Part shown: piece by piece, positions 6,626 through 32,593 of the stretch
Layout: each line of letters begins with the position of its first letter
Position numbering within the stretch: the stretch's first letter is position 1
Notes under the pieces: model-generated
Databases searched by the model: none
Seen by the model: the letters and a program-made list of their open reading frames with translations, nothing else
What the model was told of the DNA's origin: nothing
Source of the DNA: Bacteroidales bacterium OttesenSCG-928-M11
Lineage (GTDB): Bacteria; Bacteroidota; Bacteroidia; Bacteroidales; Azobacteroidaceae
DNA: 34,109 nt
Assembly (NCBI GenBank): GCA_030265685.1
Contig: JAJDGO010000016.1
Location: 1-34,109 of the forward strand
Direction: 5' to 3'
Position numbers and translations under genes: made by a program

Positions 6626-7870
6626 ATGAAGAAAATCCTTTATCTTTTTCTACTAACTATTCTCTGTTATTCGTGCAGTGACAAGACTGATGGATATATC
6701 GTTTTTGAGACAAACGAATCGTCTTGTTGGAATATTCAGGGACAAGTTGAACGAAGTGAAAAAGAAATCGTCTTGAAAGGTAATAAGTCTAAAGCGATTA
6801 CCACTACTTCTTATCGTGATTTTATTTTGGAGTTTGAATGTAAGACTTCACCGGATGCTATCGGTGGAGTTGTTTTTCATTCGAATGGTTATGATAGTCA
6901 GAAACGGGGCTATGAAGTTTTGATTAATAATAATCAAGAATCAGAAGAATGGCGTAAAACCGGGAGCTTATCCGCAATTCGTAATTATGGAAAATGCTTA
7001 TCCGAAAATGACACTTGGGTTAAGATGCGGATTGAAGTAGAAGGATCTAACATAAAAGTACATGTTGGTGATTATTGGGTTGTTGATTATTCTCAACCGA
7101 AAAACCCTTATCGCCAGAACGAATATAAAGGTCGTCTCCTTTCTAAAGGAGTTTTTGTATTTGCTAACTATTCGGAGGCTCCCATAGCTTTCCGCAATAT
7201 CAAGGTAAAGCCTCTTGATGCCATTCCTTTCAATAAAACGGATGCGATAAATGAAGACAATGATGAGTTTATCCGTTTACATCAAAAAAACTTCCCATTA
7301 TTCGATACAAATATCCAGTTAGTCGACAGCTTAACGCCGGATAGTATGGATAGTTTGACACGAAAATATGGAATTACATACGGAGTGGTTGCTTTGTGCG
7401 GAACAAACTCTGCAATTAGTACGGACAAACAGGTCGACGAATGGTTTGATAGGGTAGGGAACCATCTTTTCCTTTTGGGAATGAAAGCAGAAGGCAGCGG
7501 TTGGCAAAATCTCTTTTCTCAAAAAAGCGTTGATCGTTTCGATTATGTTTTAACAGATGCTCTTACCTGGACCGAAAGTGTTGGACAAACTAATATTGTT
7601 TCGAATCTTAATTTTCTTACCGAAGAAATAATTACGGCTTGTGTGGAAAATCAAGTAGCGATAGAAATCAACTGTCAAGACAAGATCCCAAACATACAAT
7701 CGATTCTGTTGGCAAAAGAAAGTGGTGTGCATTTTTCTTTTGCTATGAATAATAAAGTAATGATGAATAGAGGAGAAGATAACCAATTAGATTATCCTAC
7801 CGAAGTCATTAAGTCCTGCGAGTTAGAAGCGAAAGACATATATATACCTCTTGCTAAAATTAATCGATGA
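6626..7870 (+). CDS. Lipoprotein with DUF1080 domain and a degenerate PHP-like C-terminal domain
   Basis: The 414 residues begin with a lipoprotein signal (lipobox ending at Cys17). Residues about 25-197 form a DUF1080 (3-keto-disaccharide hydrolase / concanavalin-like) domain, with YRDFILEFECKTSPDAIGGV, WVKMRIEVEGSNIKVHVG and a closing APIAFRNIKVKPL. Residues about 212-414 resemble the PHP-like metal-hydrolase domain that accompanies DUF1080 in other bacteria: MKAEG near 287-290, RFDYVLTDALTWT near 304-316 and VAIEIN near 344-349. The opening metal motif, normally D-x-H-x-H, reads FDTNIQL here (N229, Q231), and the middle of the domain seems shortened. The protein may therefore bind rather than hydrolyse. 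The stop overlaps the next start by 4 bp (ATGA), so the two genes are translationally coupled. Location is probably periplasmic or surface membrane. Confidence 0.75.
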   Translation: MKKILYLFLLTILCYSCSDKTDGYIVFETNESSCWNIQGQVERSEKEIVLKGNKSKAITTTSYRDFILEFECKTSPDAIGGVVFHSNGYDSQKRGYEVLINNNQESEEWRKTGSLSAIRNYGKCLSENDTWVKMRIEVEGSNIKVHVGDYWVVDYSQPKNPYRQNEYKGRLLSKGVFVFANYSEAPIAFRNIKVKPLDAIPFNKTDAINEDNDEFIRLHQKNFPLFDTNIQLVDSLTPDSMDSLTRKYGITYGVVALCGTNSAISTDKQVDEWFDRVGNHLFLLGMKAEGSGWQNLFSQKSVDRFDYVLTDALTWTESVGQTNIVSNLNFLTEEIITACVENQVAIEINCQDKIPNIQSILLAKESGVHFSFAMNNKVMMNRGEDNQLDYPTEVIKSCELEAKDIYIPLAKINR

Positions 7871-9375
7871 GCATCATTCAATCCATAGCTCAATTATATT
7901 TCTCCTATTATTTAAAGGAGATAGACGTTTTCGTAAACAATCCATCTAAAGTACAAGAAAAGATATTCCGCTATTTACTTGAAAGTGGAAAACAAACCCT
8001 ATTTGGTGAGCAATATGGTTTCGATACAATTCGCAATATCGACGATTTCAGACAAAAAGTACCTCTTATGCGCTACGAGGATCTAAAACCCTATGTAGAA
8101 CAAATCATCGAAGGTAAGAATAAGAATGTACTTTGGAATAAACCGGTTCGTTGGTTTGCCATGTCTTCGGGGACAACTAAAGACAAAAGTAAATACATTC
8201 CGGTTACAGAAGAGTCTCTTCGCGACAGTCATTATAAATGTGGTAAGCAATTATTAGCTTTATATCTGGATGCTCATCCTGATTCTCGTTTTTTTTATGG
8301 GAAAACTATGGTTTTAGGAGGAAGTAAACAGATTAATACTTTGGGTGATCGACTTTTTACAGGAGATATTTCGGCTATTTTGATGAAACATCTTCCCTTT
8401 TGGGCAAAGAAACGTCGTACGCCGGAAGAAATAGCTCTTATCCCGGATTGGGAAACTAAGTTTGGAAAGTTGGTTGATTATGCAATAAAAACTGATATTC
8501 GCGCCATGATGGGAGTTCCCTCTTGGATGTTAGTTTTAATTCAGAAGATAGTAGAACAAACAGGTCGTCCAATGCATGAGATATGGCCCAATATTGACGT
8601 GTTTTTTCATGGAGGAGTTAACTTTACTCCATACGAAATACAGTTTAATCAACTATTTGAAAAAACAAACCTGCATTATTGGGAAACATATAATGCTTCG
8701 GAAGGTTTCTTCGGAATACAATATAAGCAAAATAGTCGCGATATGTTGCTTATGCTCGACAATAATATCTTTTATGAGTTTCTCCCGGTTAGCGAAATAG
8801 GATCGGAAAATCCTCGTACTCTTTTATTAGATGAAGTTAAAACCGGAGAGAATTATGCTCTGATCATAACAACGAACGGGGGACTTTGGCGTTATATGAT
8901 AGGCGATATGATTGAGTTTACTTCTACTCATCCCCACCTTATAAGGATAACCGGTCGTACTACTCACTATATTAATGCATTCGGCGAAGAACTTATTGTC
9001 GAAAACGCAGACAATGCTATCCGAAAAGCATCAGAACGTACAAATAGTATCTTTTCGGAATACACAGCTGCTCCTATCTTTTTCGGCAAAAAAGGAGGTG
9101 GAGCCCATGAATGGATGATAGAATTTGAAAAAATGCCGGAAGATTTAGAGCAATTTACAAATATTTTGGACGAAGAATTAAAGGCTCAAAATTCGGATTA
9201 CGAAGCAAAACGTTCCTATAATCTTTCTTTAAAGCAACCGATTGTTCATGCTCTTCCCAAAGGTACATTTTATGAATGGCTGAAGTCGCGCAATAAGCTC
9301 GGGGGACAAAACAAGATTCCTCGCCTAAGCAACGACAGTGTTTACATAGATAGTTTGCGGGACTTTATTCAATGA
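7867..9375 (+). CDS. GH3/JAR1-family adenylate-forming enzyme (GH3 auxin-responsive promoter family)
   Basis: This 502-residue cytoplasmic protein belongs to the GH3 branch of adenylate-forming (ANL) enzymes. In plants these link carboxylic acids to amino acids through an acyl-AMP intermediate; the bacterial substrate is not known. Visible features are KVPLMRYEDLKPYVE near the N-terminus and the nucleotide-binding loop FAMSSGTTKDKSKYIPVT (about residues 98-115). Further on are the helix and strand NLHYWETYNASEGFFG (adenine and acid pocket) and the hinge and C-terminal lid beginning LWRYMIGDMIEFTS and ITGRTTHYINAFGEELI. Length matches other Bacteroidetes GH3 proteins. The 4-bp overlap with the DUF1080 lipoprotein gene implies co-translation, but a shared pathway is not obvious. 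A tandem palindrome array starts 15 bp after its stop. Confidence 0.88.
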   Translation: MSIIQSIAQLYFSYYLKEIDVFVNNPSKVQEKIFRYLLESGKQTLFGEQYGFDTIRNIDDFRQKVPLMRYEDLKPYVEQIIEGKNKNVLWNKPVRWFAMSSGTTKDKSKYIPVTEESLRDSHYKCGKQLLALYLDAHPDSRFFYGKTMVLGGSKQINTLGDRLFTGDISAILMKHLPFWAKKRRTPEEIALIPDWETKFGKLVDYAIKTDIRAMMGVPSWMLVLIQKIVEQTGRPMHEIWPNIDVFFHGGVNFTPYEIQFNQLFEKTNLHYWETYNASEGFFGIQYKQNSRDMLLMLDNNIFYEFLPVSEIGSENPRTLLLDEVKTGENYALIITTNGGLWRYMIGDMIEFTSTHPHLIRITGRTTHYINAFGEELIVENADNAIRKASERTNSIFSEYTAAPIFFGKKGGGAHEWMIEFEKMPEDLEQFTNILDEELKAQNSDYEAKRSYNLSLKQPIVHALPKGTFYEWLKSRNKLGGQNKIPRLSNDSVYIDSLRDFIQ

Positions 9376-9390: not shown

Positions 9391-9473
9391 AAGTTTTACT
9401 ATAACTTACTCAAAGTTTCCTAATAACTTTACTCAAGTTCTACAACAACTTGCCCCAAGTTTTACTATAACTT
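9391..9473. repeat. Array of four 17-bp palindromes at an exact 22-bp period (locus 1)
   Basis: Each unit reads AAGTT-N7-AACTT: 9391-9407, 9413-9429, 9435-9451 and 9457-9473. The 5-bp spacers are ACTCA, TACTC and GCCCC. The inner 7-mers are TTACTAT, TCCTAAT, CTACAAC and TTACTAT. All four units keep both 5-bp arms without error, while the interiors and spacers vary. A decayed fifth unit, GAGTT-N7-TTCTT, fits the same phase at 9479-9495. The array is non-coding, between the GH3 stop (9375) and the glmM terminator. The same element recurs at 32511-32593. Confidence 0.93.
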
Positions 9474-9517
9474 GAGATGAGTTGTGGGGTTTCTTCGATG
9501 CCCATCCCAAAAGTCAT

Positions 9518-9597: not shown

Positions 9598-10959
9598 TTA
9601 TATCACCGAGTTTGCCAAGTCTTCTGCCTCCTCTTGTGTCATAGCTTCTGTATAAATACGGATGATCGGTTCGGTATTCGATTTGCGGAAGTGAACCCAT
9701 TTGTCCGGGAAGTCAACTTTTACTCCATCAATGTCATTGATAGGGTATTGAGAATATTTTTCCTTAATAGAGTTAAGTAGAGCATCAATATCAGTGTCTG
9801 GAGTTAAATCAAGTCGCTGTTTAGCCATATAGTAATTTGGATATTGTGCACGTAGTTCACTAACCGAAAGTTTTGATTTAGCTAATTGAGTAAGAAACAA
9901 TCCTATCCCAACCAAAGCATCTCTTCCATAGTGAGAAGCCGGATATATAATTCCTCCGTTGCCTTCTCCTCCGATAACAGCACCGGTTTCTTTCATTTTA
10001 GTTACTACATTAACTTCTCCTACTGCCGATGCGGTATAGTTTCCTCCGTGTTTTACGGTAATATCGCGCAAAGCTCTGGTTGAACTCATGTTTGATACCG
10101 TATTTCCTGGTGTATGGGAAAGAACATAGTCGGAAACTGCAACTAAAGTGTACTCTTCTCCGAACATACCACCTTTTTCGTCAACAATAACCAAGCGATC
10201 AACGTCGGGATCTACAACAAATCCGACATCCGCTTTTTTTGTTTTCATAGTATCCGAAATCTGAGTCAAGTTTTGTGGTAGTGGTTCCGGATTATGAGCA
10301 AATTCTCCTGTCGGTTCTGCATTTAATTCGATAATTTCTTTTGCTCCTAATGCCTTTAATAGTTTAGGAAGAACCACTCCTCCTACGGAGTTTACCGCAT
10401 CAAAAGCAATGGTAAATCCGGCTTGTTTAATCAAATCGGCATCAACCAACTCAAGTCCGAGAACATGTTCGATATGTTTTTGATCGTATGTATCATCTGT
10501 TCTAAGCTTTCCTAATTTATCTACCGGAGCAAAGTCGTAATTATCAGCCATCGAAAGCTTTAGTATTTCTTCTCCTTCAGCAGCACTTAGAAATTCGCCG
10601 CGTTCGTTTAATAGTTTCAAAGCATTCCATTGCTTAGGATTATGACTTGCTGTCAAGATAATTCCTCCTGCTGCTTTTTCCATTGTTACAGCTAACTCAG
10701 TAGTAGGAGTAGTTGCAAGACCAATATCAACAACATCGAATCCCATGCCCATAAGTGTACCAATAACAAGGTTGCGCACCATAGGTCCTGAAATGCGAGC
10801 GTCGCGCCCTAAAACGATTGTGTTCGACGGATTGTTTCTCTTGCGTATAAGAGTAGCATAGGCGGAAGTGAATTTAACAATATCAACCGGAGTTAAAGCA
10901 TCATCTACCCGGCCGCCAATGGTTCCCCGGATACCTGATATGGATTTAATAAGAGACAT
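9598..10959 (-). CDS. glmM: Phosphoglucosamine mutase (alpha-D-phosphohexomutase family)
   Basis: The likely reaction is glucosamine-6-phosphate to glucosamine-1-phosphate, needed for UDP-GlcNAc, peptidoglycan and LPS. All four phosphohexomutase signatures are present in 453 residues. These are the phosphoserine loop TASHNPKQWNALKL (Ser105), the metal loop DPDVDRLVIVD (D250, D252, D254), the sugar loop GEGNGGIIYP (331-340), and the phosphate-binding loop RKSNTEPIIRIY (425-436). RKSNTEP differs from the RxSGTEP of proteobacterial GlmM. It is the form I associate with Bacteroidetes and archaeal relatives, so phosphomannomutase or phosphoglucomutase activity cannot be excluded. It lies 27 bp after the DUF4827 gene and has its own terminator. 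The start is an ATG at 10959. Confidence 0.85.
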   Translation of the reverse strand: MSLIKSISGIRGTIGGRVDDALTPVDIVKFTSAYATLIRKRNNPSNTIVLGRDARISGPMVRNLVIGTLMGMGFDVVDIGLATTPTTELAVTMEKAAGGIILTASHNPKQWNALKLLNERGEFLSAAEGEEILKLSMADNYDFAPVDKLGKLRTDDTYDQKHIEHVLGLELVDADLIKQAGFTIAFDAVNSVGGVVLPKLLKALGAKEIIELNAEPTGEFAHNPEPLPQNLTQISDTMKTKKADVGFVVDPDVDRLVIVDEKGGMFGEEYTLVAVSDYVLSHTPGNTVSNMSSTRALRDITVKHGGNYTASAVGEVNVVTKMKETGAVIGGEGNGGIIYPASHYGRDALVGIGLFLTQLAKSKLSVSELRAQYPNYYMAKQRLDLTPDTDIDALLNSIKEKYSQYPINDIDGVKVDFPDKWVHFRKSNTEPIIRIYTEAMTQEEAEDLANSVI

Positions 10960-30792: not shown

Positions 30793-32373
30793 ATGTCCGA
30801 ATTAATTCAAGAAATACAACGCCGCCGTACTTTTGCTATCATTTCTCACCCGGATGCCGGGAAAACTACTTTGACCGAAAAATTACTATTATTCGGAGGA
30901 GCTATCCATGTAGCAGGAGCAGTTAAGTCAAATAAAATAAAAAAATCGGCCACTTCCGACTGGATGGAGATTGAGAAACAGCGTGGTATTTCGGTTGCAA
31001 CTTCGGTCATGGGTTTTGAGTACGAAGGCTATAAGATTAATATTCTTGATACTCCCGGACACCAAGATTTTGCAGAAGATACTTATCGCACCCTAACTGC
31101 AGTTGATAGTGTAATTATTGTAGTTGATATTGCTAAAGGAGTAGAGGCTCAAACCCGTAAATTGATGGAAGTATGTCGGATGCGTAAAACTCCGGTTATG
31201 ATCTTTATCAATAAAATGGATAGAGACGGACAAAATCCTTTCGACTTATTAGACGAGTTGGAACAAGAATTGAAAGTTAATGTCCGCCCATTAAGTTGGC
31301 CAATCGATCAAGGTGTACGATTCAAAGGAGTCTATAATATATACGAACACAAATTAGATCTTTATACTCCGAGCAAACAACATGTAACCGAGTCGGTAGA
31401 ATTTAAGGACTTGAATAGTCCGGACCTCGAAAAACACATAGGTCTTTCCGAAGCAGAACAGCTTCGAGCCGATTTGGAGTTAATCGAAGGCGTTTATCCG
31501 GAATTTGATGTAAATACTTATCTCGATGGAAACATTGCTCCCGTTTTCTTTGGCTCGGCATTGAACAATTTCGGAGTAAAAGAATTATTAGATTGTTTTA
31601 TTCGTATCGCACCATACCCTCGTCCTGTTCAGGCAGAAGAAAGAAAAGTAGATCCGGAAAACGATCCTATGTCCGGTTTTATATTCAAAATCCATGCAAA
31701 TATGGATCCGAATCACCGAAGTTGTATTGCTTTCTTGAAAATATGTTCCGGACGCTTCGATCGTAATACAAACTATAAACATGTCCGTCATAATAAAATG
31801 ATGAAATTCAATTCGGCAACTGCTTTCATGGCACAAAAGAAAGAAACCGTAGACGAAGCTTATGCCGGCGATATTATAGGGATTCCGGATACAGGAAACT
31901 TTAAGATCGGCGATACTATTACTTCGGGCGAAACTCTACACTTCAAAGGTTTGCCCAGCTTTTCTCCCGAAATGTTCAAGTATATAGAAAATGCAGATCC
32001 AATGAAAACCAAACAGCTCAATAAAGGGATTGATCAGTTGATGGATGAAGGTGTTGCTCAGCTTTTTACTAATCAGTTCAATGGAAGAAAAATCATCGGA
32101 ACGGTCGGTCAACTTCAGTTCGAGGTCATTCAATACCGTCTTTTGCATGAATACGGAGCACAATGTCGTTGGGAATCGCTTAGTCTTTACAAAGCCTGTT
32201 GGATAGAGAGCGAATCGGACGAAGCTTTGAATAACTTCAAAAAAAGAAAATACCAATATATGGCTTTAGACAAAGAAGGACGTGATGTTTTTCTTGCCGA
32301 CTCCAACTATGTTCTTCAAATGGCTCAACAAGATTTCCCGGAATTAAAATTCCATTTCACATCAGAATTTTAA
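30793..32373 (+). CDS. prfC: Peptide chain release factor 3
   Basis: A translational GTPase of 526 residues that recycles RF1/RF2 from the ribosome after peptide release. G1 is [20 protein letters not shown]2 lies at [12 protein letters not shown]3 is [15 protein letters not shown] and G4 is FINKMDRDG. The RF3-specific insert is present ([20 protein letters not shown]), as is domain II starting [19 protein letters not shown]. The C-terminal domain III carries [14 protein letters not shown]. The length is normal and no key residue is missing. A long gene-free region with palindromes follows. Confidence 0.96.
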
Positions 32374-32481
32374 GTTCTGCTTGGGGGGATTATAAGATTT
32401 TCAAAAAAAACAATAGCTACCAAATTATCAACAGATAGCTTGGGGTACTACTTGGTTTATTTCTCCCAAGAGATAGTATTT

Positions 32482-32513
32482 CTTTATACTTTTCTGTACA
32501 GAAAAGTGTAAAG
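32482..32513. repeat. 32-nt palindrome abutting the second array
   Basis: ACTTTTCTGTACAGAAAAGT at 32488-32507 is a perfect 20-nt palindrome. Beyond it the match continues to CTTTA...TAAAG at the ends, with one T/G mismatch that would be a wobble pair in RNA. Its last bases overlap the first array unit. There is no T-tract, so a terminator is less likely than a protein site or cruciform. Confidence 0.85.
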
Positions 32514-32593
32514 TTATGGTAAAACTTTGACCAAGTTCTAGTAGAACTTTACCCAAGTTATACAACAACTTTGTTCCGGTTATACTATATTCT
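32511..32593. repeat. Array of 17-bp palindromes at an exact 22-bp period (locus 2)
   Basis: Three intact AAGTT-N7-AACTT units lie at 32511-32527, 32533-32549 and 32555-32571. A decayed fourth (CGGTT-N7-ATTCT) holds the phase at 32577-32593. Inner 7-mers are ATGGTAA, CTAGTAG, ATACAAC and ATACTAT; spacers are TGACC, TACCC and TGTTC. The second unit is a perfect palindrome of 8-bp arms around one G. Period, arm sequence and pyrimidine-rich spacers match locus 1 at 9391-9473, although the flanks are unrelated. Confidence 0.93.

Follow-up and report, generated by a model that had tools for sequence, protein, structure and literature searches.

Evenly spaced arrays of phased palindromes between the genes of a Bacteroidales bacterium

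Is a short row of palindromes beside prfC a stray repeat, or one member of a set of sites placed along the chromosome? The question is raised by locus 2 of the window (the whole stretch of DNA analysed, 34,109 nucleotides from Bacteroidales bacterium OttesenSCG-928-M11), which also holds a similar array, locus 1 (Table 1). The original prediction described locus 2 as three intact units and one decayed unit in perfect phase at 32511-32593, with the second unit perfect over 8-bp arms; the exact 22-bp steps and the 8-bp arms were both confirmed. The array is longer than that, since an in-phase B unit and a decayed K-type unit lie upstream. The centre of the B unit is 21.5 bp from that of the first A unit, and the centre of the K-type unit is 21.5 bp ahead of that of the B unit. 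The K type is defined from other loci, and this example of it, with three mismatches, falls outside our scripted unit listing, which allowed at most two. The inner heptamers are TTACTAT, TCCTAAT, CTACAAC and TTACTAT at locus 1, and ATGGTAA, CTAGTAG, ATACAAC and (in the decayed unit) ATACTAT at locus 2. Over both loci T occupies position 2 in 7 of the 8 heptamers and A occupies position 6 in all 8, the counts that had been given. The differing spacers and inner bases, and array flanks with only short matches in common, bear out the claim that locus 2 is no recent copy of locus 1. The pattern AAGTT-N7-AACTT (at most one mismatch) has 10 matches in the window against 3.46 expected, a number reached in 0 of 100 shuffles, and 7 of the 10 are in-phase array units.

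Table 1. Array units of the two loci in the window, with neighbouring genes
Feature	Positions	Strand	Basis
Decayed K-type unit AAGAGATAGTATTTCTT (three mismatches to AAAAGATASTATCTTTT)	32468..32484	.	read directly from sequence
B unit, perfect 16-bp palindrome TTTTCTGTACAGAAAA	32490..32505	.	sequence
A unit 1 AAGTTATGGTAAAACTT = AAGTT-ATGGTAA-AACTT	32511..32527	.	sequence
A unit 2 AAGTTCTAGTAGAACTT = AAGTT-CTAGTAG-AACTT, 8-bp arms perfect	32533..32549	.	sequence
A unit 3 AAGTTATACAACAACTT = AAGTT-ATACAAC-AACTT	32555..32571	.	sequence
Decayed end unit CGGTTATACTATATTCT (four mismatches to the hybrid end unit AAGTTnTASTATCTTTT)	32577..32593	+	comparison; within model match 32511-32593
Locus 1, four intact A units in 22-bp steps (starts 9391, 9413, 9435, 9457)	9391..9473	.	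sequence
Locus 1, decayed fifth unit GAGTTGTGGGGTTTCTT	9479..9495	+	arrays read in register
prfC (peptide chain release factor 3), upstream neighbour of locus 2	30793..32373	+	Pfam RF3_C, 152 bits
GH3-family protein, left neighbour of locus 1	7867..9375	+	Pfam GH3, GH3_M, GH3_C
Phosphoglucomutase/phosphomannomutase, right neighbour of locus 1, convergent	9598..10959	-	Pfam PGM_PMM I-IV

The neighbouring prfC has full-length or nearly full-length matches in congeners, 82-88% identical, with the exception of one in congener G003 (44% identity). The latter (C5:766609-768165) carries 24 internal stops and is an apparent pseudogene in a small genome (1.2 Mb, 99% complete). Adjoining the prfC of another congener, G033, is an ordinary-looking minisatellite of about 24 bp (AAAAAAGCACCGAGGATTGTT...; L032) that is non-palindromic by eye.

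The finding of two loci within the window had been taken to suggest a genome-wide dispersed family, an idea to be given up if no further copies appeared elsewhere. The opposite was found: many further copies occur in the genome, a draft assembly of 1.48 Mb in 83 contigs that is 51.7% complete. The tandem AAGTT-N7-AACTT pair (at most two mismatches) is present at 141 places and its reversed control at 1, and TTTTCTGTACAGAAAA (at most one mismatch) at 76 places, against 0 for its control. Model searches for A arrays and for B arrays, once merged, yield at least 89 array loci on 44 contigs (45 with A only, 44 with B), as counted from the matches listed out of 168 and from the best 150 of 1543 and the best 150 of 2496 first-look candidates; matches less than 400 bp apart were taken as one locus.

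Unit structure was read at 88 loci (86 fetched stretches plus the two window loci, leaving aside C12:34986). Four kinds of unit recur: A (AAGTTnTASTAnAACTT), K (AAAAGATASTATCTTTT), an A/K hybrid (T or t by direction), and B (TTTTCTGTACAGAAAA). At up to two mismatches the 88 loci contain 212 A, 76 B, 89 hybrid, and 14 K units, with 4 or 5 recognised units in 71 loci. Centre-to-centre steps measure 21.5-22.5 bp in 292 cases of 303; the remaining 11 are steps of 21 bp (3) or double steps of 43-45 bp (8). The hybrid unit (at most two mismatches), which carries a T run, ends 24 of the first 42 arrays examined. Class II loci have one to three central B units flanked by hybrid, K or A units. AA/TT dinucleotide power at 11-11.5 bp is 3.5 within the arrays, versus about 1 in their flanks.

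The arrays are intergenic. Though 85% of the stretches is coding, 86 of the 88 loci lie outside ORFs of at least 120 aa, and the two that overlap ORFs (L065, L157) may reflect over-long calls, gene calls here being simple ORF calls. Neighbouring genes at the 80 two-sided loci are convergent in 27 cases, codirectional in 38, and divergent in 15; only 1 of 25 other gaps of at least 100 bp in the same stretches is convergent. A preference for convergent genes was dropped as a general argument, because the convergent share is not clearly raised in two genomes of other families that carry arrays of this design (G240, 7 of 23 array gaps vs 17 of 84 others; G124, 3 of 21 vs 13 of 96).

The arrays are also evenly spaced. 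The 45 same-contig intervals between the loci range from 5.2 kb (5177 bp) to 28.2 kb, with a median of 11.2 kb and a coefficient of variation (CV) of 0.40, one or a few starts per locus having been entered from the matches listed. No interval is shorter than 5 kb where uniform placement predicts 16.4, and 0 of 20,000 simulations were as extreme. The evenness persists when sites are confined to a random subset of transcription-unit boundaries 2.5-6 kb apart (8 settings, 4000 runs each). The set of loci may lack some degenerate arrays, and random misses would lower the regularity rather than raise it. Loci of different class stay well apart too, the joint minimum being 5.2 kb. Of 44 pairs of neighbours, 32 combine different classes (P=0.0024 by global label shuffle, P=0.24 by shuffling within contigs), so a strict A/B alternation, significant under global shuffling alone, is weak and was rejected. 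A replichore-oriented (KOPS-like) polarity was rejected too, since the orientation of the T end seemed constant on contig C1 and proved inconsistent overall. Bacterial supercoil domains are usually put at about 10 kb.

Three roles had been proposed for such arrays. Even spacing favours the first, a nucleoid-type site; strand, terminator and divergent-gene data weaken the second, a transcript-end element; the third, a mobile repeat, stays a live rival. Our leading explanation, to which we assign a probability of roughly 0.4, is that the arrays are phased protein-binding sites that organise the chromosome and whose sequence turns over fast. Each locus would be a double-stranded DNA docking array of, usually, three to six dyad-symmetric putative protein sites. 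Neighbouring sites two helical turns (22 bp) apart would all present about the same face of the helix, so that a dimeric protein could bind cooperatively along some 110 bp. The arrays would be of two classes, one A-type (AAGTT..AACTT, often with a hybrid end unit) and one centred on TTTTCTGTACAGAAAA, and, lying between genes about every 11 kb, they could anchor or delimit chromosome loops or supercoil domains at even intervals. From species to species the sequence that is read would change quickly, with architecture and spacing staying. Dyad symmetry, helical phasing, intergenic even spacing, and replacement of the sequence from species to species together fit a DNA-binding protein that acts cooperatively in organising the chromosome; the existence of the protein and its role are what we infer from them. 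Dispersed short sites read by chromosome-organising proteins are familiar (matS, parS, KOPS). These are single sites that favour certain chromosome regions and are conserved from genus to genus, whereas the arrays described here are tandem, evenly spread, and replaced in sequence between species. The inconsistent polarity along contigs counts against docking arrays.

If a protein reads the arrays, the units should be looked at base by base. Information content was computed for 191 A units (21 of the 212 were dropped, having a centre other than G/C). The 12 detection positions hold 1.7-2.0 bits, a conservation of the arms that is partly built in, as units were recognised by their arms (at most two mismatches in those 12 positions), and that counts the less in favour of docking arrays. 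Position 10, outside the detection set, holds 1.8 bits and position 8 holds 1.0, versus just 0.2 and 0.5 at positions 6 and 12. Complementary bases at positions 6 and 12 occur in 21 of 191 units, compared to a fraction of 0.289 after shuffling, and spacer bases in the first 42 arrays are likewise under-paired (bases 1/5 pair at 0.22 vs 0.32 shuffled, bases 2/4 at 0.30 vs 0.41). Symmetry is thus retained in the arms and shunned at positions whose pairing would extend a hairpin, and the rarity of complementary bases 6 and 12 argues against selection for RNA or cruciform pairing. When A units are turned so that the central base is G, C occurs at base 12 in 0 of 191, and any of the four letters can stand at base 6.

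A duplicated gene pair on contig C15, with an array at the same place in both copies (L066, L067) and 84% identity alongside over 322 bp, supplies a natural test of arm constraint that is independent of detection, small, and mixed in outcome. Where the alignment is clear, in two units, the copies match at 19 of 20 arm bases and at 16 of the 24 remaining ones; including a third unit, which sits at the edge of the L067 array, changes these to 26 of 30 and 23 of 36. The small size and mixed outcome count against docking arrays. Selection on the arm bases is supported, short of proof.

The particular sequences are missing from the relatives sampled. The exact A pair pattern was found in 1 of 58 genomes and the B tandem pattern in 1 of 393, in both cases our own. 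In a wider collection of genome contigs, from which our own or near records may be missing, the exact A triple has only one locus besides our own, in a Methanosarcina contig (L016, 3020-3102). That locus consists of four near-identical 22-bp copies of AAGTTTAAYCTGAACTTTACAT, the last diverging at its end, and matches the A pattern by chance or convergence. It and a match in a viral contig (L087) were rejected as family members, being single-locus tandem repeats in those collections.

Arrays of the same design with unrelated sequences (near-palindromic units every 21-23 bp) do occur, in congener G026 and in G124 and G240 of other families, as found by de novo scans with a lag-match threshold that cover 500, 400 and 400 kb, respectively. 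Families P (GAAAC..GTTTC, 23 bp), Q (TASTA core, 23 bp; 141 triple matches vs 0 for the control), and R (ACGTACGTAAATTT, 22 bp) are present in G026. For its spacing, unassigned clusters at C1:58973, C3:113370 and C4:25523 were left out, a weak one at C4:12008 was counted as Q, and R was merged with Q at C1:74119. Taken jointly, P and Q (26 loci in 500 kb) are even (CV 0.47 vs 0.87 at random, P=0.0005; 1 interval below 5 kb vs 5.1), as are all three families (29 loci; P=0.0037 for the CV; 3 intervals below 5 kb vs 6.5, P=0.05). Q alone (16 loci) has a CV like random (P=0.47), with 0 intervals below 10 kb where 3.6 are expected (P=0.005), and R arrays lie near Q arrays, within 0.3 kb at C1:74119 and at 3 kb at C5:77085; the random-like CV of Q and the closeness of R to Q count against docking arrays. 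One of the clusters left out (G026:C3:113370-113487) is a different tandem repeat, with core CACTATATGTTTTTGAGG and a 23-bp lag, seen at one place in the stretches read. Two further results weigh on the same side. Samples of congeners G006, G016 and G028 (80-100 kb each) and G024 (an 18-kb contig) gave no such family, only single matches at background level. Nor are positions shared with G026, where orthologues of 16 array-adjacent genes lie a median of 5.5 kb from the nearest array (4.2 kb for random positions).

Across the order, TAGTA triplets at 22/23 bp have matches in 30 of 393 genomes, many of them ordinary local tandem repeats. The reversed control also matches many genomes, mostly once or twice, which means that presence alone says little; high counts and repeated loci were used instead, and by this measure G240, G067 and G124 show one motif at several places. 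At a lag of 22 bp, G124 has 27 clusters and G240 has 24, with 0-3 at other lags of 14-40 bp apart from lags 21 (18) and 14 (7) in G240. Chains of palindromes sought blind to sequence likewise peak at a step of 22 (G124 20, G240 17), other steps giving 0-4 except for 9 at step 33 in G240. This separate peak, alongside a GC-rich family (AAAAGGCCGGCGGCCTTTT) at 21-bp steps on G240:C4, hints at multiples of 11 bp. By script, 26 of 32 clusters in G124 and 24 of 34 in G240 are palindromic; the spacing test excluded 5 of the 26 in G124, which overlap ORFs. Spacing is even in G240 (CV 0.49 vs 0.94, P=0.0001; 1 interval below 5 kb vs 6.0) and more weakly so in G124 (CV 0.65 vs 0.93, P=0.03; 1 interval below 5 kb vs 4.6). 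Each of the two genomes holds several unrelated palindromes, which is hard to square with one sequence-specific protein.

The main rival, which we regard as a serious possibility, is that the arrays are non-autonomous mobile repeats (MITE- or BrickBuilt-like) whose putative transposase, through a target immunity that blocks insertion close to a copy already present, produces even spacing in the absence of any cellular role. This explanation is strongest for family Q of G026, whose copies have a common unit order and, by eye, similar leader and tail sequences; there the arrays were dispersed by copying. The array sequences are limited to species, and positions differ between our genome and G026, as mobility would have it. 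Two of our 88 loci have inverted matches between their own two flanks, 34 bp at L083 and 22 bp at L120, that are not common to other loci; the match at L083 (contig C39), at 91% identity, is a possible terminal repeat. Against mobility, no family-wide leader, tail or terminal repeat was found among the 88 loci when flanks of 25-350 bp outside the array were compared, the 39 matches all being 16-48 bp long with the duplicated gene pair excepted. A Y1/RAYT transposase, the one transposase type covered, has 0 matches to PF01797 in our 51.7%-complete assembly, a result on which, with about half of the genome covered, a RAYT/REP identity was provisionally set aside. Finally, the mutual distance kept by both classes is not what immunity within a single family predicts.

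Comparison to known repeats bears on the same rival. The arrays fall under none of the families compared; BrickBuilt and REP/BIME come closest, each with a defining feature that is absent here. The known element most like our arrays is BrickBuilt of Porphyromonas gingivalis, which Klein et al. (2015, PMC4596501) describe as a MITE containing a minisatellite of 23-nt repeats. According to the portions of PMC4596501 consulted, it consists of tandem 23-nt units with no extra spacer, is intergenic, and occurs in P. gingivalis and P. gulae only; there are 19 copies of 1 to 22.8 repeats each, a leader and/or tail in 16 of 19, and IS5-like terminal repeats. Two copies lie within about ten genes (PGN_0550-0559), and those portions do not describe even spacing. 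Our arrays are similarly tandem (22-bp units) and intergenic, and by inspection the BrickBuilt consensus AGAYCATARTATCCTCTCRTRTG (PMC4596501) is an imperfect 17-bp palindrome, AGAnnATA-R-TATnnTCT, plus 6 bp, near to our K unit plus 5 bp. They differ in having at least 89 loci of 2-7 units, several unit types in one phase, and even spacing, and in lacking a common leader and tail with terminal inverted repeats in our genome (a leader and tail are seen, by eye, only in Q of G026). REP/BIME elements, in the portions of PMC3733652 consulted, are high-copy intergenic palindromes tagged GTAG or CGTC, often in convergent or codirectional gaps, with a hypothesised role in supercoiling. Our arrays are intergenic, palindromic and high-copy too, but no GTAG/CGTC foot is present (by inspection the arms are AAGTT/AACTT, AAAAG/CTTTT or TTTTCTGT/ACAGAAAA), units run head-to-tail in 22-bp phase, and loci are evenly spaced. 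PINSR, a repeat of the Prevotella intermedia/nigrescens group, shares a lineage-specific and intergenic distribution; as far as the consulted portions of PMC4755523 describe it, it is a 188-bp unit of very high copy number with no terminal inverted repeats, and phased palindromes and even spacing are absent from that description. The portions of PMC5771137 consulted contain nothing on these arrays, and those of PMC12306157 gave background on REP searching. No evenly spaced phased palindrome arrays are named in the listed titles and abstract openings of the literature surveyed, most of it outside subscription journals. CRISPR, with near-identical repeats and unique spacers of about 30 nt beside cas genes, was rejected on repeat layout, the arrays having a 22-bp period and 5-6-bp spacers.

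Remaining explanations fare worse. The arrays could be structural elements in which only symmetry and phasing are selected, phased palindromes that extrude cruciforms or bend DNA and so absorb supercoiling; the unrelated near-perfect palindromes with a common 22-bp step in G124 and G240, and the strong 11-bp AA/TT phasing of our own arrays, are what this would lead one to expect. We think it unlikely, for A units in our genome are sequence-specific, and bases 6 and 12, in avoiding complementarity, interrupt the stem after 5 bp, which argues against a cruciform. Somewhat more doubtful still is a role in RNA as 3'-end elements, either terminators or mRNA stabilisers. The many convergent and codirectional gaps and the T run of the hybrid end unit would suit such a role, and both window loci fold better than 200 of 200 shuffles (z -4.3 and -3.2), but z is only -2.2, -1.3 and -1.25 for three other arrays. 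The 15 arrays between divergent genes, the convergent shares in G240 and G124, and the avoidance of pairing by bases 6 and 12 also oppose it. The T-run side has no tie to gene strand, by reading of 42 tabulated arrays with no statistics applied, and a scan of locus 2 called no intrinsic terminator. A simple intrinsic terminator (GC-rich stem, T run oriented with the gene) was accordingly rejected, as was an RNA hairpin with covariation, inner bases and spacers avoiding pairing; no Rfam family matches the window at gathering threshold. Very improbably, a conventional repressor binds the arrays as the operators of a single large regulon: tandem conserved dyad-symmetric sites would suit this, but the even spacing, the 65 of 80 loci that adjoin at least one gene 3' end, and the lack of a common function among the few named neighbours (8 proteins) do not.

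The work suggests that the arrays are no stray repeat but a set of chromosome sites, placed at regular intervals, that has so far gone unrecognised. More tentatively than we propose docking arrays, we raise the possibility that some bacteria of this order carry a chromosome "ruler", an array every 10-12 kb read by a fast-evolving nucleoid protein that sets the size of loops or supercoil domains. If this is true, architecture and spacing are selected and the recognised sequence is replaced wholesale between species, as with fast-evolving centromere or PRDM9-type sites, and wholly different sequences under one conserved architecture and spacing would be a striking example of chromosome sites that evolve fast. 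Should the arrays be mobile instead, such regularity would imply a target immunity both strong and unusual. Even repeats at the scale of supercoil domains would make the determinant of domain size directly testable.
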